Source: Candidatus Aenigmatarchaeota archaeon (GTDB taxonomy: Archaea > Aenigmatarchaeota > Aenigmatarchaeia > QMZP01 > QMZT01). Taken from it: a stretch of DNA of 21,500 nucleotides. The notes beneath the pieces are model-generated. The model saw only the letters and a list, made by a program, of their open reading frames with translations, ran no database searches and was not told where the DNA came from. Shown piece by piece: positions 3,219-13,691 of this stretch; positions within the stretch are counted from its first letter, which is position 1; each line of letters opens with the position of its first letter. The stretch is from the NCBI GenBank assembly GCA_030634615.1, contig DAOWAL010000002.1:1-21500 (forward strand), in the 5' to 3' direction. Both the position numbers and the translations under genes were made by a program.

Positions 3219-5183
3219 TTGATGATTGAGTATCTTCCGTGGGTATCAGGCGGGCTTGCACTAATTTTTGCATTAGTGACCGCGCTGACAATAAGGAAAA
3301 ACAGTGCAGGAAACAAAGAAATGAAACATATAAGCTCTCTTATACACAAGGGCGCTTTGACGTATCTTAACAAGCAATACAAATACATTACGGTTTTTGT
3401 AATTGCTGTTGCAGCAATCTTATATTTTGTGATTAACCAGTCGACTGCTTATGCATTCATTGGTGGAGCATTCTTCTCTGCTTTGACCGGAAATCTTGGA
3501 ATGAGAGTTGCAACATCGGCTAATGCCAGGACAGCAGAGGCAGCCAAAAAATCTATTAATGATGGTCTCAGAATAGCATTCTCTTCCGGAACAGTTATGG
3601 GAATGAGTGTTGTTGGTCTTGGTCTACTGGGTGTTTCACTCATGTACATGATCTTCCAGAGTCCGACTATATTGTTCGGCTTTGGTTTTGGAGCTTCTTC
3701 TATTGCTCTTTTTGCAAGAGTTGGTGGCGGTATCTACACAAAAGCTGCAGATGTCGGTGCTGATCTCGTAGGAAAAGTTGAGAAGGGAATCCCTGAAGAT
3801 GACCCAAGAAACCCGGCAGTCATTGCGGATAACGTTGGTGACAACGTTGGTGATGTTGCTGGTATGGGAGCTGACTTATTTGAAAGCTATGTTGATTCTA
3901 TAATAGCGACAATGGCTATTGGAATTGTACTTTCAACATTCTCAAACCTTGTAGTTCTTCCAATGATGATCGCAGGTCTTGGAATACTTGTTTCCCTGGT
4001 CGGAACATTCTTTGTAAGAACAAAAGAAGGAAAGAGTCCACACGGTGCCCTGAGTAAGGGAATATACATATCATCAGGACTGATGTTTGTGCTATCGTAT
4101 TTTCTCATAACATTCGTTTCAGGACCAGGCGCTATCAACATTTGGTATGCGACAGTTTCAGGTCTTGTATCTGGACTTGTCATAGGTCTTGCAACAGAAT
4201 ACTACACATCTGATTCGAAGGGACCAGTTAAGTCAATCGCAGAAGCATCCCAAACCGGTGCTGCAACAAACATCATTGCGGGACTTGCAACCGGTATGAA
4301 ATCAACAGTAATTCCTGTTTTAGCAGTTGGTGCTGCTATGATGATATCATATCAGTTTGCAGGACTTTACGGTATAGCAATAGCAGCAGTTGGTATGCTT
4401 TCAACACTTGGAATAACATTAGCATCCGATACATACGGACCAGTTGCTGACAATGCAGCAGGTATTGCTGAAATGGCGGGTCTTGGAAAAGAAATCCGTG
4501 AAAGGTGTGAAGCACTTGATGCAGTTGGTAACACAACAGCAGCAATAGGAAAGGGCTTTGCAATAGGTTCAGCTGCTCTTTCGGCACTTGCATTATTTGC
4601 GGTGTATGGAACAACAGTAGGACTTACTACAATTTCACTACTTGAACCAGCAGTTGTAACAGGTCTTTTCATAGGAGCACTTTTACCGTTCCTTTTCTCG
4701 GCCTTTACAATGAATGCTGTTGGAAAAGCTGCAATGAAAATAGTGGTCGAAGTCCGAAGGCAGTTCAAGGAAATAAAGGGCATAATGTCCGGAAAAGGAA
4801 AACCAGATTACGAGAGTTGTATTGCAATATCAACACAGTCAGCTCTTCATGAAATGATTGTACCGAGTTTAATTGCAATACTTGCTCCCATCGTGGTTGG
4901 ATTAGTCCTTGGTGCTGAAGCACTAGGAGGCATGCTTGGTGGTGCAATTTCCACTGGTTTTCTCATGGCTCTTTTCCTTTCAAACTCCGGAGGAGCTTGG
5001 GATAACGCCAAGAAATACATAGAAAGAGGTAACCTAGGAGGCAAAGGAAGCGATGCGCATAAAGCGGCAGTCGTAGGTGATACTGTGGGAGACGGTTGTA
5101 AGGATACCAGCGGTCCGTCGCTAAATATTTTGATTAAACTGATGTCGATAGTTGCTTTGGTATTTGCACCATTATTTTTGTGA
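3219..5183 (+). CDS. hppA: membrane-bound ion-pumping pyrophosphatase (likely K+-dependent, Na+-type)
   Basis: The 654-residue polytopic membrane protein couples PPi hydrolysis to ion export across the cell membrane. Family motifs are intact: [20 protein letters not shown] from residue 178, then [21 protein letters not shown], and a C-terminal [20 protein letters not shown]. In [11 protein letters not shown] (from 437), A441 and G444 stand where K+-independent members have Lys and Thr, which points to K+ dependence. E222 in DLFESY is the gate glutamate typical of Na+-pumping forms. Both assignments rest on family knowledge. The length is about normal. Oddly, the last 12 bases overlap an opposite-strand homing endonuclease gene, and a second, diverged copy of the C-terminal codons lies at 6449-6493, so this 3' end seems to have been supplied by the insertion. 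Confidence 0.95.
5139..5183 (+). repeat. restored C-terminal coding segment of the pyrophosphatase (copy 1)
   Basis: These 45 bases encode [13 protein letters not shown], then Leu and a TGA stop. The same 13 residues, then Ile and TAA, are encoded at 6449-6493. Eight of the 13 identical residues use different codons (for example Ser TCG versus AGC, Leu TTG versus CTT). The protein end is therefore preserved while the DNA has diverged. Confidence 0.85.
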
Positions 5184-6386
5184 GTTTTTGTTTTTTAGCA
5201 ACTCACTTCTTATTTCTTCTTTTATTCTATTCCAACCAGTTTCGACTCCGTCCCAAAGTTTGTCTTTGTTTTTCAATATGAATTTCATTTTTCTGGTTTT
5301 TTCACTGTGCTTGCTTAAAGGTAATATTATATTTACCAGAGATAATACATCGTTCTTTCTGTATAAAGTGAGATTATACATATCATTACGTAAAGCTCCA
5401 TATATACCTTTAGTGCCCTTCTCACGGTCCAAGTATAGTTGAGTAGTATAATTTTCAAAAAATAATCTTTCTCTTATTTGTTGAAGAATTTTTTTATCGC
5501 ACGTTTTTATTTTGAAAATGAATCTTACATGCTTTTCGTGACTTTTCATCACGTTCCATGTCCCTTCGCAATCCATATACGCGCTTAGGAAATTGTAAAA
5601 ATAATCATCATTTTCCATGACCCATACGGGGATTTTTTCAGGTTTCTCTAAAAGAAAATCAAACGATGGATGTAAATCCGCATAGATAAACCATTCATCA
5701 TCCCTTGCTTTGTTTTTTGACAAATATATACAAGTTTCTCCGTATTTCTCAAAAGCTCTTCTCAGAAGTTCAATTTGGGCGGAATGTGTTGTTGTGGTTT
5801 GAAATCTAATAGATTTTCTGGCCCATTTAGCGTAGAAGTCTCCTGCTCTCATCCCCAGAAAATACGCTTTTTCTTCTAAATTACCCGAAAATTCGTGCTT
5901 GAACTTCTTAGTCAGCGCTTCCGAAACGGTTTTAGTTTTTAGTCCATATTTTATCATTTTCTTCCTAACTGTTCTACCGTGTTTGATTCCGAACTTCTTC
6001 GCAATTTGATTTGACGTAAGATTCTTATCCCAGTAAAGTTTTTTTAGAACACTCTTCGGTATGTGAATATAATTTTGATTCGCTGGTCTTCTTTTTATAC
6101 CGAATTTCCTCATCCAATACAATATGTTCGTATTATTACAATCAAATTTTTTGGCAATTCCCTCCATTGACATTTTTTGTTTGACATAGAGATCTTCTAA
6201 AGTTTCTCTATCCATTTCGAGTCCTTTCTTAAATTCTTTCCTTCTCTCTATCTCGAAGTTCAGAAGCCAGTAATGGACTTTTGTCGGACTGCATCCTAAT
6301 TTATCCGCAATTTTATTCATAGAAAGTCCTTCTTTCCAATATAAATTATATAATTGCTGTCTATCGATTTTCGGTTCTGTTTTCAT
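5172..6386 (-). CDS. LAGLIDADG homing endonuclease with three N-terminal HTH repeats
   Basis: The protein has 404 residues. Three related helix-turn-helix units (about 10-50, 60-100 and 112-152) share the pattern LY..-..S..-IAKKFG and probably bind DNA. Two LAGLIDADG-type helices follow: [11 protein letters not shown] at 174-184 (acid D183) and [12 protein letters not shown] at 266-277 (acid E274). A single chain with two motifs acts as a monomer, cutting a long asymmetric site. The gene is not in an intron or intein: it is antisense to the pyrophosphatase gene and complete. Its last codons overlap that gene's last 12 bases, and the displaced pyrophosphatase end lies just upstream of its promoter. 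The likely role is spreading this insertion into uninterrupted pyrophosphatase genes. Host-gene cleavage is inferred. Confidence 0.85.
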
Positions 6387-6406
6387 ATTAAATATTTAGA
6401 TTTGAT

Positions 6407-6420
6407 CCCTTATAAATGAA
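6407..6420 (-). promoter_or_regulatory. TATA box of the homing endonuclease gene
   Basis: Read on the minus strand, TTCATTTATAAGGG contains a strong TATA box (TTTATAAG) 23-30 bases before the ATG at 6386, with no ribosome site. The insertion therefore seems to carry its own promoter for a leaderless transcript. Confidence 0.6.
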
Positions 6421-6430
6421 AGATACATAA

Positions 6431-6493
6431 GGACTAAAATTAAACATGTTAATGAGCATTGTTGCACTTGTATTCGCACCACTATTCATATAA
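6431..6493 (+). pseudogene. orphan 3' end of the pyrophosphatase gene, left downstream of the insertion
   Basis: From 6449 to 6493 the plus strand reads [13 protein letters not shown], Ile, stop in one frame, matching the last residues of the pyrophosphatase that ends at 5183. Farther upstream in this frame (6431-6448) the reading is GLKLNM, only loosely like the SLNILIK of the intact gene, so the junction with the insert probably lies about 6435-6450. It is too short to make a product. Two consecutive TAA codons follow, then a terminator-like palindrome. The simplest reading is the original gene end, cut off when the endonuclease gene arrived. Confidence 0.85.
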
Positions 6494-6496
6494 TAA

Positions 6497-6516
6497 AAGA
6501 AGGCAATTGCCTTCTT
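6497..6516 (+). terminator. 20-bp palindrome and T-rich tract, probably the original pyrophosphatase terminator
   Basis: AAGAAGGCAATTGCCTTCTT is a perfect 20-bp palindrome, followed by pyrimidine-rich DNA with T runs to about 6543. It sits 3 bases after the tandem stops of the orphan tail, where the terminator of the uninterrupted gene would be. A protein-binding palindrome is an alternative. Confidence 0.6.
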
Positions 6517-6532
6517 CCTTTCTTTTTCTAAT

Positions 6533-6543
6533 CTTTTTATTTT
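6533..6543 (+). promoter_or_regulatory. TATA box of mtnA
   Basis: CTTTTTATTTT ends 20 bases before the ATG at 6564. There is no ribosome site between them, so the transcript is probably leaderless. Confidence 0.5.
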
Positions 6544-6563
6544 CCTACTCTTAATACTATCTT

Positions 6564-7577
6564 ATGCTCGTAAACGGAAAACACTACAGAACTGTGTGGT
6601 TTGAAAAGGACAAAATAAAAATGATAAACCAGTTAGTCCTTCCACATAAGTTTGAAATAACAGAACTGAAAAACGTGAGCGATGTCGCTCTTGCGATAAC
6701 CAGCATGGTTGTGAGGGGAGCTCCTGCAATTGGTGCAACTGGTGCTTATGGAATGGTACTTGCAATTCTTAAGGGAGACAATCCTGAAAAAGCTGCAGAA
6801 GTACTTCGTGGAACAAGACCAACAGCTCAGGACCTATTCCATGGAATAGATTATGTTTTAGAATCAGTGAAAAACACAGATGATTCTCAATTAAAGCATG
6901 CTGCATTAAAGGCAGCTGAAGATTATGCCAACTGGTCGGTCGAGGCGTGCAAATCAATCGGTGAACACGGTTCTCAGGTCATAAAGGATGGTAACATAAT
7001 AGCTACTCATTGCAATGCAGGATGGCTTGCAACAGTTGACTGGGGGACAGCACTTTCTCCTATATATGCTGCAAAAAGACAGGATAAAAAAATAGAAGTT
7101 TATGTTGACGAAACAAGACCAAGACTCCAGGGAGCAAATCTAACTTCGTGGGAACTTCTCAATGAGGGCATTCCTCACTATATTATAACAGATAATGCAA
7201 CTGGCTATTACATGAGCAAAAGGGAAATAGACTTAATGATAGTCGGTGCAGACAGGGTTGCAAGAAATGGCGACTTTGCAAACAAGATAGGAACATATGA
7301 AAAAGCAGTGGTTGCAAAGGAAAACGGAATTCCGTTCTATGTTGCCATACCAAGTACAACAATTGATGTTTTGACAGAAAACGGAAGCAAAATACCAATA
7401 GAAGAAAGAGATGAAAATGAAGTGCATTTCATAGGAAAGGAACGAATAACTCCACGAGGAGCAAGAGCAAAAAATCCTGCTTTTGATGTCACGCCTGCAA
7501 AGTTCGTTACAGGAATAATAACAGAAAGAGGAATTTTTAGACCAGAAGAACTCTCAAAAGTTTTTTCTAAAAAATAA
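6564..7577 (+). CDS. mtnA: S-methyl-5-thioribose-1-phosphate isomerase (MtnA / aIF2B-like fold)
   Basis: The 337-residue protein has the sugar-phosphate isomerase fold shared with eIF2B subunits. It carries VVRGAPAIGATGAYG near residue 50, TRPTA near 84, HCNAGWLATVDWGTA with catalytic Cys150, VYVDETRPRLQGA, and MIVGADRVARNGD with catalytic Asp230. This set is characteristic of MtnA, which converts 5-methylthioribose-1-phosphate to the ribulose form in methionine salvage. Archaeal relatives act on ribose-1,5-bisphosphate or are initiation-factor-like, but the motifs here favour MtnA. No other salvage genes are nearby. It stands alone with its own promoter. Confidence 0.88.
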   Translation: MLVNGKHYRTVWFEKDKIKMINQLVLPHKFEITELKNVSDVALAITSMVVRGAPAIGATGAYGMVLAILKGDNPEKAAEVLRGTRPTAQDLFHGIDYVLESVKNTDDSQLKHAALKAAEDYANWSVEACKSIGEHGSQVIKDGNIIATHCNAGWLATVDWGTALSPIYAAKRQDKKIEVYVDETRPRLQGANLTSWELLNEGIPHYIITDNATGYYMSKREIDLMIVGADRVARNGDFANKIGTYEKAVVAKENGIPFYVAIPSTTIDVLTENGSKIPIEERDENEVHFIGKERITPRGARAKNPAFDVTPAKFVTGIITERGIFRPEELSKVFSKK

Positions 7578-8715: not shown

Positions 8716-8742
8716 CTTTTTATTTCTCGACTATTCTCTTTT
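8716..8742. repeat. 27-bp direct repeat, left copy
   Basis: These 27 bases, starting CTTTTTATTTCTCGACTATT and ending CTCTTTT, are identical to 9340-9366 in the same orientation. This copy covers the last codons and stop of the ribbon-helix-helix gene (KRIVEK on the minus strand). The flanks of the two copies differ at once on both sides. The repeat period is 624 bases and spans exactly the two-gene module. Confidence 0.9.
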
Positions 8743-8944
8743 CTACCACTTCGTCTATGATATTACTCATTGACTTACCAGTTTCTCTGGATTCATTTTT
8801 AAGTGCGTTGAAAGTGGAGCGACGGATGGTGAAAGAGCGTCTCATCTTCTCAAGAGGCATATTCCCTGTTCTATCAAATTCTTCAAGCATTCTTGCGTAT
8901 TTCTCGTTTTCCTTCATTATTCTTTCAATTTCCTGTAACCGCAT
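8720..8944 (-). CDS. ribbon-helix-helix antitoxin-like protein paired with Doc
   Basis: The protein has 74 residues. The N-terminal 35 are helical and charged, and residues 36-72 (SFTIRRSTFNALKNE, then SMSNIIDEVVEKRI) read as a ribbon-helix-helix DNA-binding unit: a basic strand followed by two helices. Such proteins dimerise, bind operator DNA and often neutralise a partner toxin. The start overlaps the doc stop by 20 bases, showing translational coupling. The order is toxin first, antitoxin second, and the partner is not a Phd-type protein, both departures from classical phd-doc. The last six codons and stop lie in the flanking 27-bp repeat. Confidence 0.7.
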   Translation of the reverse strand: MRLQEIERIMKENEKYARMLEEFDRTGNMPLEKMRRSFTIRRSTFNALKNESRETGKSMSNIIDEVVEKRIVEK

Positions 8945-9281
8945 ATCTTATCAACCTCTCTATCCTTCCTACATCTGTTATGTTTTCCATGGCTATCTTG
9001 GTTATTTCCAAGACCAAACTTTCGTTTACCTTTTTTCCTGTTTTGATTTTACTATTTTCCAGTATAGCAAGTGCCGACATGAGGGCTGTTCTCTTATTAC
9101 CGTCTGTGAAAGGGTGACCAACTAAAATTGCCCTCCATAAATATGCTATTTTCCTGAAAACCGCCTTTCCTCTTCCCAGAGAAAGGGCAGTTTCTATTTC
9201 AGCATCTGTCCTGAGACTCCCGCCATACTTATCATTTATCCACTTTATCTGGTCTTTGGATATTATATATTCCGAATTCAT
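8925..9281 (-). CDS. doc: Doc-type toxin, Fic fold
   Basis: The 118-residue protein has the compact length of Doc. The active-site loop is HPFTDGNKRTAL (H56 to R64). Lys after Asn (GNKR rather than the GNGR of AMPylating Fic proteins) is the Doc hallmark; Doc of phage P1 phosphorylates elongation factor Tu. Doc usually has Ala before that Asn, while this one has Gly as in Fic, so the chemistry is not certain. The archaeal target would have to be an EF-1A-like factor or something else (inference). It is the first gene of a two-gene operon with its own promoter, bracketed by the 27-bp repeat. Confidence 0.82.
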   Translation of the reverse strand: MNSEYIISKDQIKWINDKYGGSLRTDAEIETALSLGRGKAVFRKIAYLWRAILVGHPFTDGNKRTALMSALAILENSKIKTGKKVNESLVLEITKIAMENITDVGRIERLIRYAVTGN

Positions 9282-12755: not shown

Positions 12756-13691
12756 ATGTTTGTAGAGAAAAGAAAGGTCGGTAAGAGGACAAAATATTAT
12801 CTTGTTCACTCTTTCAGAGAAAACGGTGGAGTTAAAAAAATAAGACGCTTCTTGGGCTCAGACCTTTCAGACTCTGAACTTAATAAAATAAAAAAATCTG
12901 CTGAGAGTATAATTATTGAACAGATTAGAATATACAAGACCATAAGCGATCCATTAAAGACCGTTCTGGATAAAGAAGAAATTAATGAATTGCAAACACT
13001 CGAGTCAAAAGGCAAAATGCACATATTCCACCTTTCAGAAGATGAATGGAATAAATTTTCTGAGGACTTTACTTATGATACAAATGCAATAGAAGGTTCA
13101 ACAGTTACGAAAAATGAAGTAAAAAATATACTTAGAAAAAACCATTGGCCTGAAGATAGAGCTAAATGGGAAGTATCAGAAACATATGGTGTTTCCGATG
13201 CCATAAAATACATAAGAAAAAGCAAAACTCATATATCACTTGAATTAATCAAAAAACTTCATTTCATAGTTTTTAAAAATTCTAAACAATTTGCAGGCAA
13301 TTTCCGAAAAACTGGAGAAGAGGTTGTTGTTGCAAACAGTTCAGGTAGAATTTTACATAGAGGTGCACCATCACAAAAGGTGACATGTCTCATAAAAGAA
13401 CTTGTTTCGTGGTACGAAAAGAACAATAATCGTTATCCTCCAATTACGCTTTCAGCTGTTGTTCATAATCAATTTGAAAACATACACCCTTTTCTTGATG
13501 GCAACGGACGAGTTGGTCGTCTACTTCTCAATAACATACTTATAAAACATTCTTTACCTCCTGTAAACATACATTTTTCAAACAGACAAATATATTATTC
13601 TACACTTAGGGAATATCAGAAAAACGGAAACATCCGCCCCACAATAGAACTCATATTAAACGAATATGGAAAGCTGAAGAAAAACAGGTGA
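12756..13691 (+). CDS. Fic-domain AMPylase, class II with inhibitory helix
   Basis: The 311-residue protein opens with a basic domain (FVEKRKVGKRTKYYLVHSF, then KKIRRFLG at 27-34), followed by a charged helical region. The inhibitory helix motif TNAIEG (109-114, with the active-site-blocking Glu113) precedes the Fic core, so this is a class II Fic. The full catalytic loop HPFLDGNGR is at 244-252, the form that transfers AMP to target proteins. The target is unknown; a wHTH-like or other extra domain may select it. The stop codon lies inside the inverted repeat at 13687-13716. It is the second Fic-fold gene in the window and seems single-gene, unlike the Doc module. Confidence 0.88.
   Translation: MFVEKRKVGKRTKYYLVHSFRENGGVKKIRRFLGSDLSDSELNKIKKSAESIIIEQIRIYKTISDPLKTVLDKEEINELQTLESKGKMHIFHLSEDEWNKFSEDFTYDTNAIEGSTVTKNEVKNILRKNHWPEDRAKWEVSETYGVSDAIKYIRKSKTHISLELIKKLHFIVFKNSKQFAGNFRKTGEEVVVANSSGRILHRGAPSQKVTCLIKELVSWYEKNNNRYPPITLSAVVHNQFENIHPFLDGNGRVGRLLLNNILIKHSLPPVNIHFSNRQIYYSTLREYQKNGNIRPTIELILNEYGKLKKNR

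Follow-up and report, generated by a model that had tools for sequence, protein, structure and literature searches.

The 3' end of the membrane pyrophosphatase gene hppA in a Candidatus Aenigmatarchaeota archaeon (genome G000) most probably derives from an end-replacing homing element of ~1.3 kb (~5118-6436), consisting of an endonuclease gene together with the last 21 codons and the stop of hppA in recoded form. We assign this reading a probability of about 0.8. Comparison with other genomes established the layout of the locus, its recurrence, an empty site, decay of an orphaned hppA tail, odd codons in the working tail, a predicted LAGLIDADG fold and selection on the endonuclease. As in the end-replacing class, hppA is complete, the endonuclease gene lies beside it, no splicing is involved and the former end of hppA persists as a fragment past the endonuclease gene. 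An initial annotation of this DNA had proposed an insertion that came with a recoded tail and left the host protein complete; the empty site, recurrence and codons support this proposal, and we infer from these sequence comparisons that the element brought the tail and is mobile.

All coordinates refer to the window, i.e. the whole stretch of 21,500 nucleotides analysed (G000:C19:1-21500), which belongs to a 1.10 Mb assembly of 142 contigs (83% complete). The hppA ORF (3219-5183, plus strand) encodes 654 aa. Its body (3219..5117), the host gene, matches PF03030 (E 3.1e-275) and NF001960 (973.5 bits as compared to a cut-off of 546), and the recoded 3' end with its stop (5118..5183) is taken as element cargo on the basis of the codon test of carriers versus empties; the left edge at 5118 is an estimate, and the orphan of a related genome (G006) starts at the same codon. 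On the minus strand, the endonuclease gene (5172..6386, 404 aa) shares 12 bases with the end of hppA. The region upstream of this gene (6387..6436, minus strand) forms the right end of the element, is partly conserved in G006, G324 and G610 and contains, judged by sequence only, a TATA-like TTTATAA at 6410-6416, ~27 bases ahead of the endonuclease ATG. Beyond it lies the orphan (6437..6493, plus strand), a former hppA 3' end ending in ATA TAA, then a perfect 18-base palindrome (6498..6515) with a T-rich stretch, which is probably the old hppA terminator, and finally the flanking host gene mtnA (S-methyl-5-thioribose-1-phosphate isomerase; 6564..7577, plus strand; TIGR00512, 394 bits as compared to a cut-off of 279). 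mtnA also lies downstream in G006 and G007. The presence of the pyrophosphatase C-terminus on both sides of an antisense LAGLIDADG gene was thus correctly recognised in the initial annotation; the second tail, placed there at 6449-6493, does possess the stop and palindrome but starts earlier, at ~6437. Elsewhere in the window, a Fic/DOC protein (8925-9281, minus strand; E 3.1e-9) is adjoined by a 74-aa ORF (region 8720-9281), with which it may form a toxin-antitoxin pair; another Fic protein is encoded at 12756-13691 (plus strand; E 2.2e-19).

The reality of the duplicated tail was examined by translated flank-versus-flank comparison at 51 endonuclease loci and with an hppA-tail profile. The G000 locus scored 79 in the flank comparison, as compared to a median of 41, a 95% point of 53 and a maximum of 65 for 150 mismatched flank pairs. 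With the profile, the far flanks of G006, G000, G137 and G595 scored 36.8, 26.9, 17.2 and 14.1, respectively, the best of 26 control endonuclease loci at other genes reaching 13.6. Both results exceed their controls in G000 (79 against 65; 26.9 against at most 13.6), indicating that the second tail is not a chance match. The G595 orphan is marginal by score and was accepted because its match, STITLVLALLFI, is terminated by a stop codon where one is expected. Far flanks of G324, G610 and G183 were at background with this profile, giving no orphan. The flank comparison gave no signal for G006 (L118, 33), whose working tail is off that contig, or for G137 (L148, 40), whose orphan has decayed; both orphans rest on reading of the loci and the profile scores. 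Matches at L108 (79), L124 (79) and L149 (70) were accepted in the 51-locus comparison. Five further matches above the null maximum (L123, 71; L176, 84; L178, 247; L189, 71; L190, 80) were dropped as low-complexity, reverse-frame or repetitive-ORF matches by eye, as were L173 (56) and L185 (55), short matches barely past the 95% line. A hand count agreed with the initial annotation that 8 of the 13 residues common to the hppA end and the copy at 6449-6493 use different codons.

Of 156 genomes in the G000 phylum, 20 have a relative of the endonuclease, as do 34 of 371 genomes of the G156 phylum, 11 of 241 genomes of the G324 order (partly the same genomes as in the other sets), 12 of 286 genomes of the G159 phylum (i.e. 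Patescibacteria) and one of nine chosen genomes. The Patescibacteria matches were rejected as long close relatives, the longer ones being 31-32% identical and a single 43-residue piece 51%. Close endonucleases, defined by at least 53% identity, occur in nine genomes (G000, G006, G137, G324, G183, G393, G561, G610 and G595), and in all nine the gene lies 3' of hppA or, in G006, of the orphan tail. Seven of these loci are convergent with hppA (G006 by deduction), and an orphan is present in four of the seven (G000, G006, G137 and G595). In G561 and G393 the endonuclease gene is ~170 bases downstream of hppA on the same strand, with no orphan, and the G393 copy is broken by stops. A scan of viral contigs with the endonuclease alignment produced 14 pattern matches and no relatives.

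The layout of tail, insert and orphan that the initial annotation suggested should be found in other genomes was recovered in G006, G137 and G595. G006 belongs to another genus of the same family and has an endonuclease 71% identical to that of G000, followed by SLNILIELISILSLVFAPLFI with its stop, an 82-aa ORF and mtnA. The orphan begins at codon SLN; the G006 hppA runs off a different contig at residue 560, leaving the left junction unassembled. G137 belongs to the same class but a different family; here hppA lies behind a run of N and is followed by an endonuclease of 60% identity and a tail with a deletion and a frameshift, and the downstream gene differs. An uninterrupted relative was likewise found: G007 has no endonuclease match, and its hppA stops ~30 bases ahead of the same mtnA, representing the empty site. 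The hppA ends of G002, G004, G005 and G008 are intact. Two observations that would have spoken against an insertion, i.e. a double tail in relatives lacking the endonuclease or conservation of 6449-6493 as a small gene, were not made: a second tail was absent from the 500 bases past hppA in the five same-family insert-free genomes (G002, G004, G005, G007 and G008), and the orphan has no conserved small-gene form, having lost 9 bases relative to the hppA gene in G000 and being frameshifted in G137. As separate observations, G007 has a tandem pair of hppA genes that differ in type (G007:C3:6314-10299; 71% and 50% identical to the G000 hppA protein), and TTTCCGGA is common to four hppA carriers (L163, L193, L164 and L194) just past the right end of the element.

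The history of the working tail was assessed in an alignment of 22 hppA genes (8 carriers and 14 without the element at hppA) by counting codon identity where the amino acid was equal, Met and Trp being excluded. Between G000 and G002, only 1 of 19 tail codons was equal as compared to a body-window mean of 0.46, with all 628 of 628 windows at least as high. Against other insert-free genomes the tail shared 4/19 codons with G008 (body 0.42), 5/20 with G005 (0.37), 2/16 with G007 (0.31) and 4/19 with G004 (0.27). Against carriers it shared 10/19 with G393 (body 0.35), 9/19 with G561 (0.39), 8/17 with G324 (0.29), 7/17 with G610 (0.30), 7/17 with G137 (0.27), 3/12 with G183 (0.44) and 3/12 with G595 (0.40), the hppA genes of the last two having another tail type. 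With the last 150 body codons as reference, the mean tail-over-body excess of G000 was -0.168 versus the 14 empties and +0.062 versus the seven other carriers, as compared to +0.028 among empties. The excess was 0.231 higher for carriers than for empties (permutation P = 0.00025), with the carriers being partly related and not fully independent. Significance persisted on removal of G610 and G393 (P = 0.00125) and with convergent carriers only (P = 0.0011), and none of 43 other G000 windows attained the observed value. Taking each of the 14 empties in turn as centre gave a negative carrier-empty difference (-0.004 to -0.208); with the other seven carriers as centre the difference was not significant (six with P of 0.14 to 0.32; G595, 0.97). 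By this test, and for G000 alone, the end and body of hppA appear to have different histories, and the working tail of G000 looks foreign. The orphan was not clearly more native, sharing 15/68 codons with the five family empties as compared to 16/93 for the working tail.

The endonuclease was examined using AlphaFold2, Foldseek and VIA-align, which predict three helix-turn-helix units and a LAGLIDADG domain with two motifs. Across 19 sequences D183, D272 and E274 are invariant, giving two motifs with conserved acidic residues, and a Pfam search also found N-terminal HTH domains. Among the best 25 of 27 Pfam families (E up to 0.1) there was no intein or zinc-finger domain, indicating that the protein is not a WHO protein of the yeast type discussed below. 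Comparison with the G006 gene gave a dN of 0.176 and a dS of 1.52 (dN/dS ~0.12), indicating purifying selection on the gene. The helix-turn-helix array is similar to Cbp1, a CRISPR repeat-binding protein (NF040595, E 1.9e-6, below cut-off), and the N-terminal half matches PDB chain 2lvs_A (E 2.7e-4), there named a putative uncharacterized protein. One relative, 63% identical (P0013), carries a Patescibacteria label.

A free-standing endonuclease gene might instead have landed at the end of hppA, with break repair duplicating the local 3' end, the working tail being the host's own and the two copies having drifted apart. Five of the nine close loci lack a recognisable orphan, the endonuclease genes of G561 and G393 resemble ordinary genes downstream of hppA and the orphan codons are not clearly native, all of which would fit this alternative. 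The same points (i.e. the orphan-free G324, G610 and G183, the same-strand G561 and G393 without an orphan, and the codons of the orphan), together with null codon tests for seven carriers and for iscU, also count against the element. However, a host tail drifting under protein constraint should match the codons of relatives as well as the body does, and in G000 the match with G002 is far below this expectation, with no such deficit against most of the distant carriers. We regard this alternative as unlikely. The identification of the orphan as the old tail is based on its place beside mtnA, on its decay and on how unusual the other copy is.

Joining of the hppA body to the downstream tail by an intron or intein-like mechanism would accord with the usual residence of LAGLIDADG endonucleases in introns and inteins, and archaeal group I introns have reportedly been found (PMC6125680). 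We nevertheless consider splicing extremely improbable, as the endonuclease gene runs antisense to hppA, the hppA frame is itself complete with a stop and the tail to be joined is damaged by the G000 deletion and the G137 frameshift. An intein was rejected because the endonuclease ORF is on the strand opposite hppA and is not an in-frame insertion, and a group I intron because Rfam searches of both strands of 4900-6700, around the endonuclease gene, gave no match up to an E value of 1. A very improbable origin of the downstream tail is as an independent small gene or a remnant of a second hppA copy; its in-frame ATG and stop and the tandem hppA pair in G007 would suit such an origin, but the tail varies in length and frame, lies just past the endonuclease start in four genomes and has no counterpart within 500 bases past hppA in the five same-family insert-free genomes. 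The homing element is preferred on the evidence of the G007 empty site, the orphans of G006, G137 and G595, the location at hppA in nine of nine genomes, the codon test and the parallels at iscU and metG.

For such an element, we propose that the endonuclease would cut uninvaded hppA near codons GP/SLN, and that an element-carrying donor would serve as template for repair of the break, with homology to hppA used on the left side and the old 3' end on the right. The recipient hppA would then end in the donor tail, with its own tail stranded past the endonuclease gene as the orphan, and a complete protein would be made with no splicing of RNA or protein. With its many synonymous differences, the new tail should also shield the occupied gene from re-cutting. 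Cleavage, transfer and self-protection are thus the activities that the sequences lead us to infer for the element.

Comparison of distant loci places the hppA case in a wider set of putative elements that includes a 5' version at metG. Gene names were tested in ten proteins against NCBIfam, the other host-gene names at distant loci being assigned by eye; at least one cut-off was passed by metG (L149, L168 and L174), hmgA (L122) and pheS and pheT (L120), whilst rtcB (L152, L156 and L177) and iscU (L124) were below cut-off. The listing of neighbouring genes covers rows with a locus other than L162, L175, L176, L178-L191 and L198-L209. In G031, iscU is separated by an endonuclease relative (31% identity) from an orphan tail, KVHCSVLAVEALKKAIENYKKKDG with its stop, and an IscU search recovered the orphan again as a separate match. 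By eye, two tail types can be told apart, short in this orphan and long in the working tail; the codon test of iscU found no tail-body difference (80/242 and 83/249 as compared to 296/857 for the body).

At 12 loci the endonuclease is upstream of metG on the same strand, with spacing from fused or overlapping to ~70 bases apart, and four of these (L149, L167, L168 and L174) have a remnant of the metG head ahead of the endonuclease. In L149 the endonuclease gene overlaps at its start with the stranded head, MVIKIKFYISTAIIYTNGD with its stop, and at its end with the new metG head; the L168 remnant is MTASKFYVTT. A test with each locus's own head supported only L149 and L168 among the 12, and a head profile test added L167 and L174. 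Each of the four remnants was matched by 0 of 100 shuffles, the best of 24 controls reaching 6 of 100, and the remaining eight loci gave a head signal at background. In L167 (G403) a single open frame of 872 aa spans both the endonuclease and metG, and L166, also at metG, has a short piece in common with L167 by eye. At rtcB (five loci), hmgA (two) and pheS/pheT (two) the endonuclease overlaps or is near the gene end; profiles detected orphan ends at none of the five rtcB and two hmgA loci, and none was seen by eye at the two pheS/pheT loci. At pheS/pheT and rtcB loci (L120, L121, L155 and L156), the endonuclease gene is preceded by a short ORF that by eye we take to be AbrB-like and that could be a regulator carried by these elements. 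In G010, by eye, locus L126 (2640-3444 and 7049-8002) has a LAGLIDADG-like ORF ahead of a seemingly broken uppS start and, further on, an RtcB-like ORF that seemingly has an intein-like insertion.

When integrated islands insert into a tRNA or protein gene, they rebuild its 3' end by means of site-specific recombinases and near-identical repeats. Like them, the hppA element supplies a new end and leaves the host gene whole; it differs in that the sole long gene of the 1.3-kb insert is an endonuclease and the two copies of the end have diverged. Inteins and intron-borne homing endonucleases also place a LAGLIDADG protein at a highly conserved host site, but they need splicing and split the cut site by insertion, whereas the hppA element is unspliced and its site is presumably lost through recoding. 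No archaeal or bacterial precedent was found among titles and the openings of abstracts, most subscription journals being outside the search. To our knowledge, end replacement of this kind is known only from fungi.

The fungal mitochondrial precedent named in the initial annotation stands (PMC3630166, PMC4019555), but precedents are also nuclear, the closest being the WHO elements at FBA1 of Torulaspora and Lachancea yeasts as described by Coughlan et al. 2020 (PMC7282813). WHO elements resemble the hppA element in that the endonuclease gene adjoins the host gene and does not interrupt it, with a replacement 3' end upstream, a decaying former 3' end beyond the endonuclease and, in some cases, an orientation opposite to the host gene; resistance is ascribed there to allelic differences (PMC7282813). 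WHO proteins combine an intein-like region with a zinc finger, their genes are clustered and their cleavage has been demonstrated (PMC7282813), whereas the hppA element is archaeal, occurs singly and encodes a protein with predicted HTH units and a LAGLIDADG domain. A further difference is that relatives of the hppA-element endonuclease also use the 5' end of metG. The mitochondrial papers report mobile ORFs of Glomus at atp6, atp9, cox2 and nad3, with atp6 of Allomyces macrogynus cited (PMC3630166), and, in Phlebia, alternative ends of both atp6 and cox2 (PMC4019555). In these cases a LAGLIDADG or GIY-YIG gene carries a foreign C-terminal part with the native part beyond it, as at hppA; the fungal ORFs are organellar and often in phase with the host gene, whereas the hppA element is chromosomal, archaeal and antisense (PMC3630166, PMC4019555).

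With slightly better than even odds, we suggest that DPANN archaea harbour widespread homing elements that replace the 3' ends of hppA and iscU and the 5' end of metG, where the endonuclease would take over the start of the host gene, that the recoded ends would protect the elements from their own endonucleases, and that such swaps have occurred repeatedly, across phyla and without splicing. The pairs of endonuclease and target are directly testable in vitro. There are also risks for annotation, as the G137 endonuclease (P0010) is labelled a transposase and orphan tails can pass for small genes. If this suggestion is true, a selfish gene can occupy a highly conserved site without an intron or intein, and chimeric histories are predicted at the ends of conserved archaeal genes, which would be relevant to both phylogeny and annotation.
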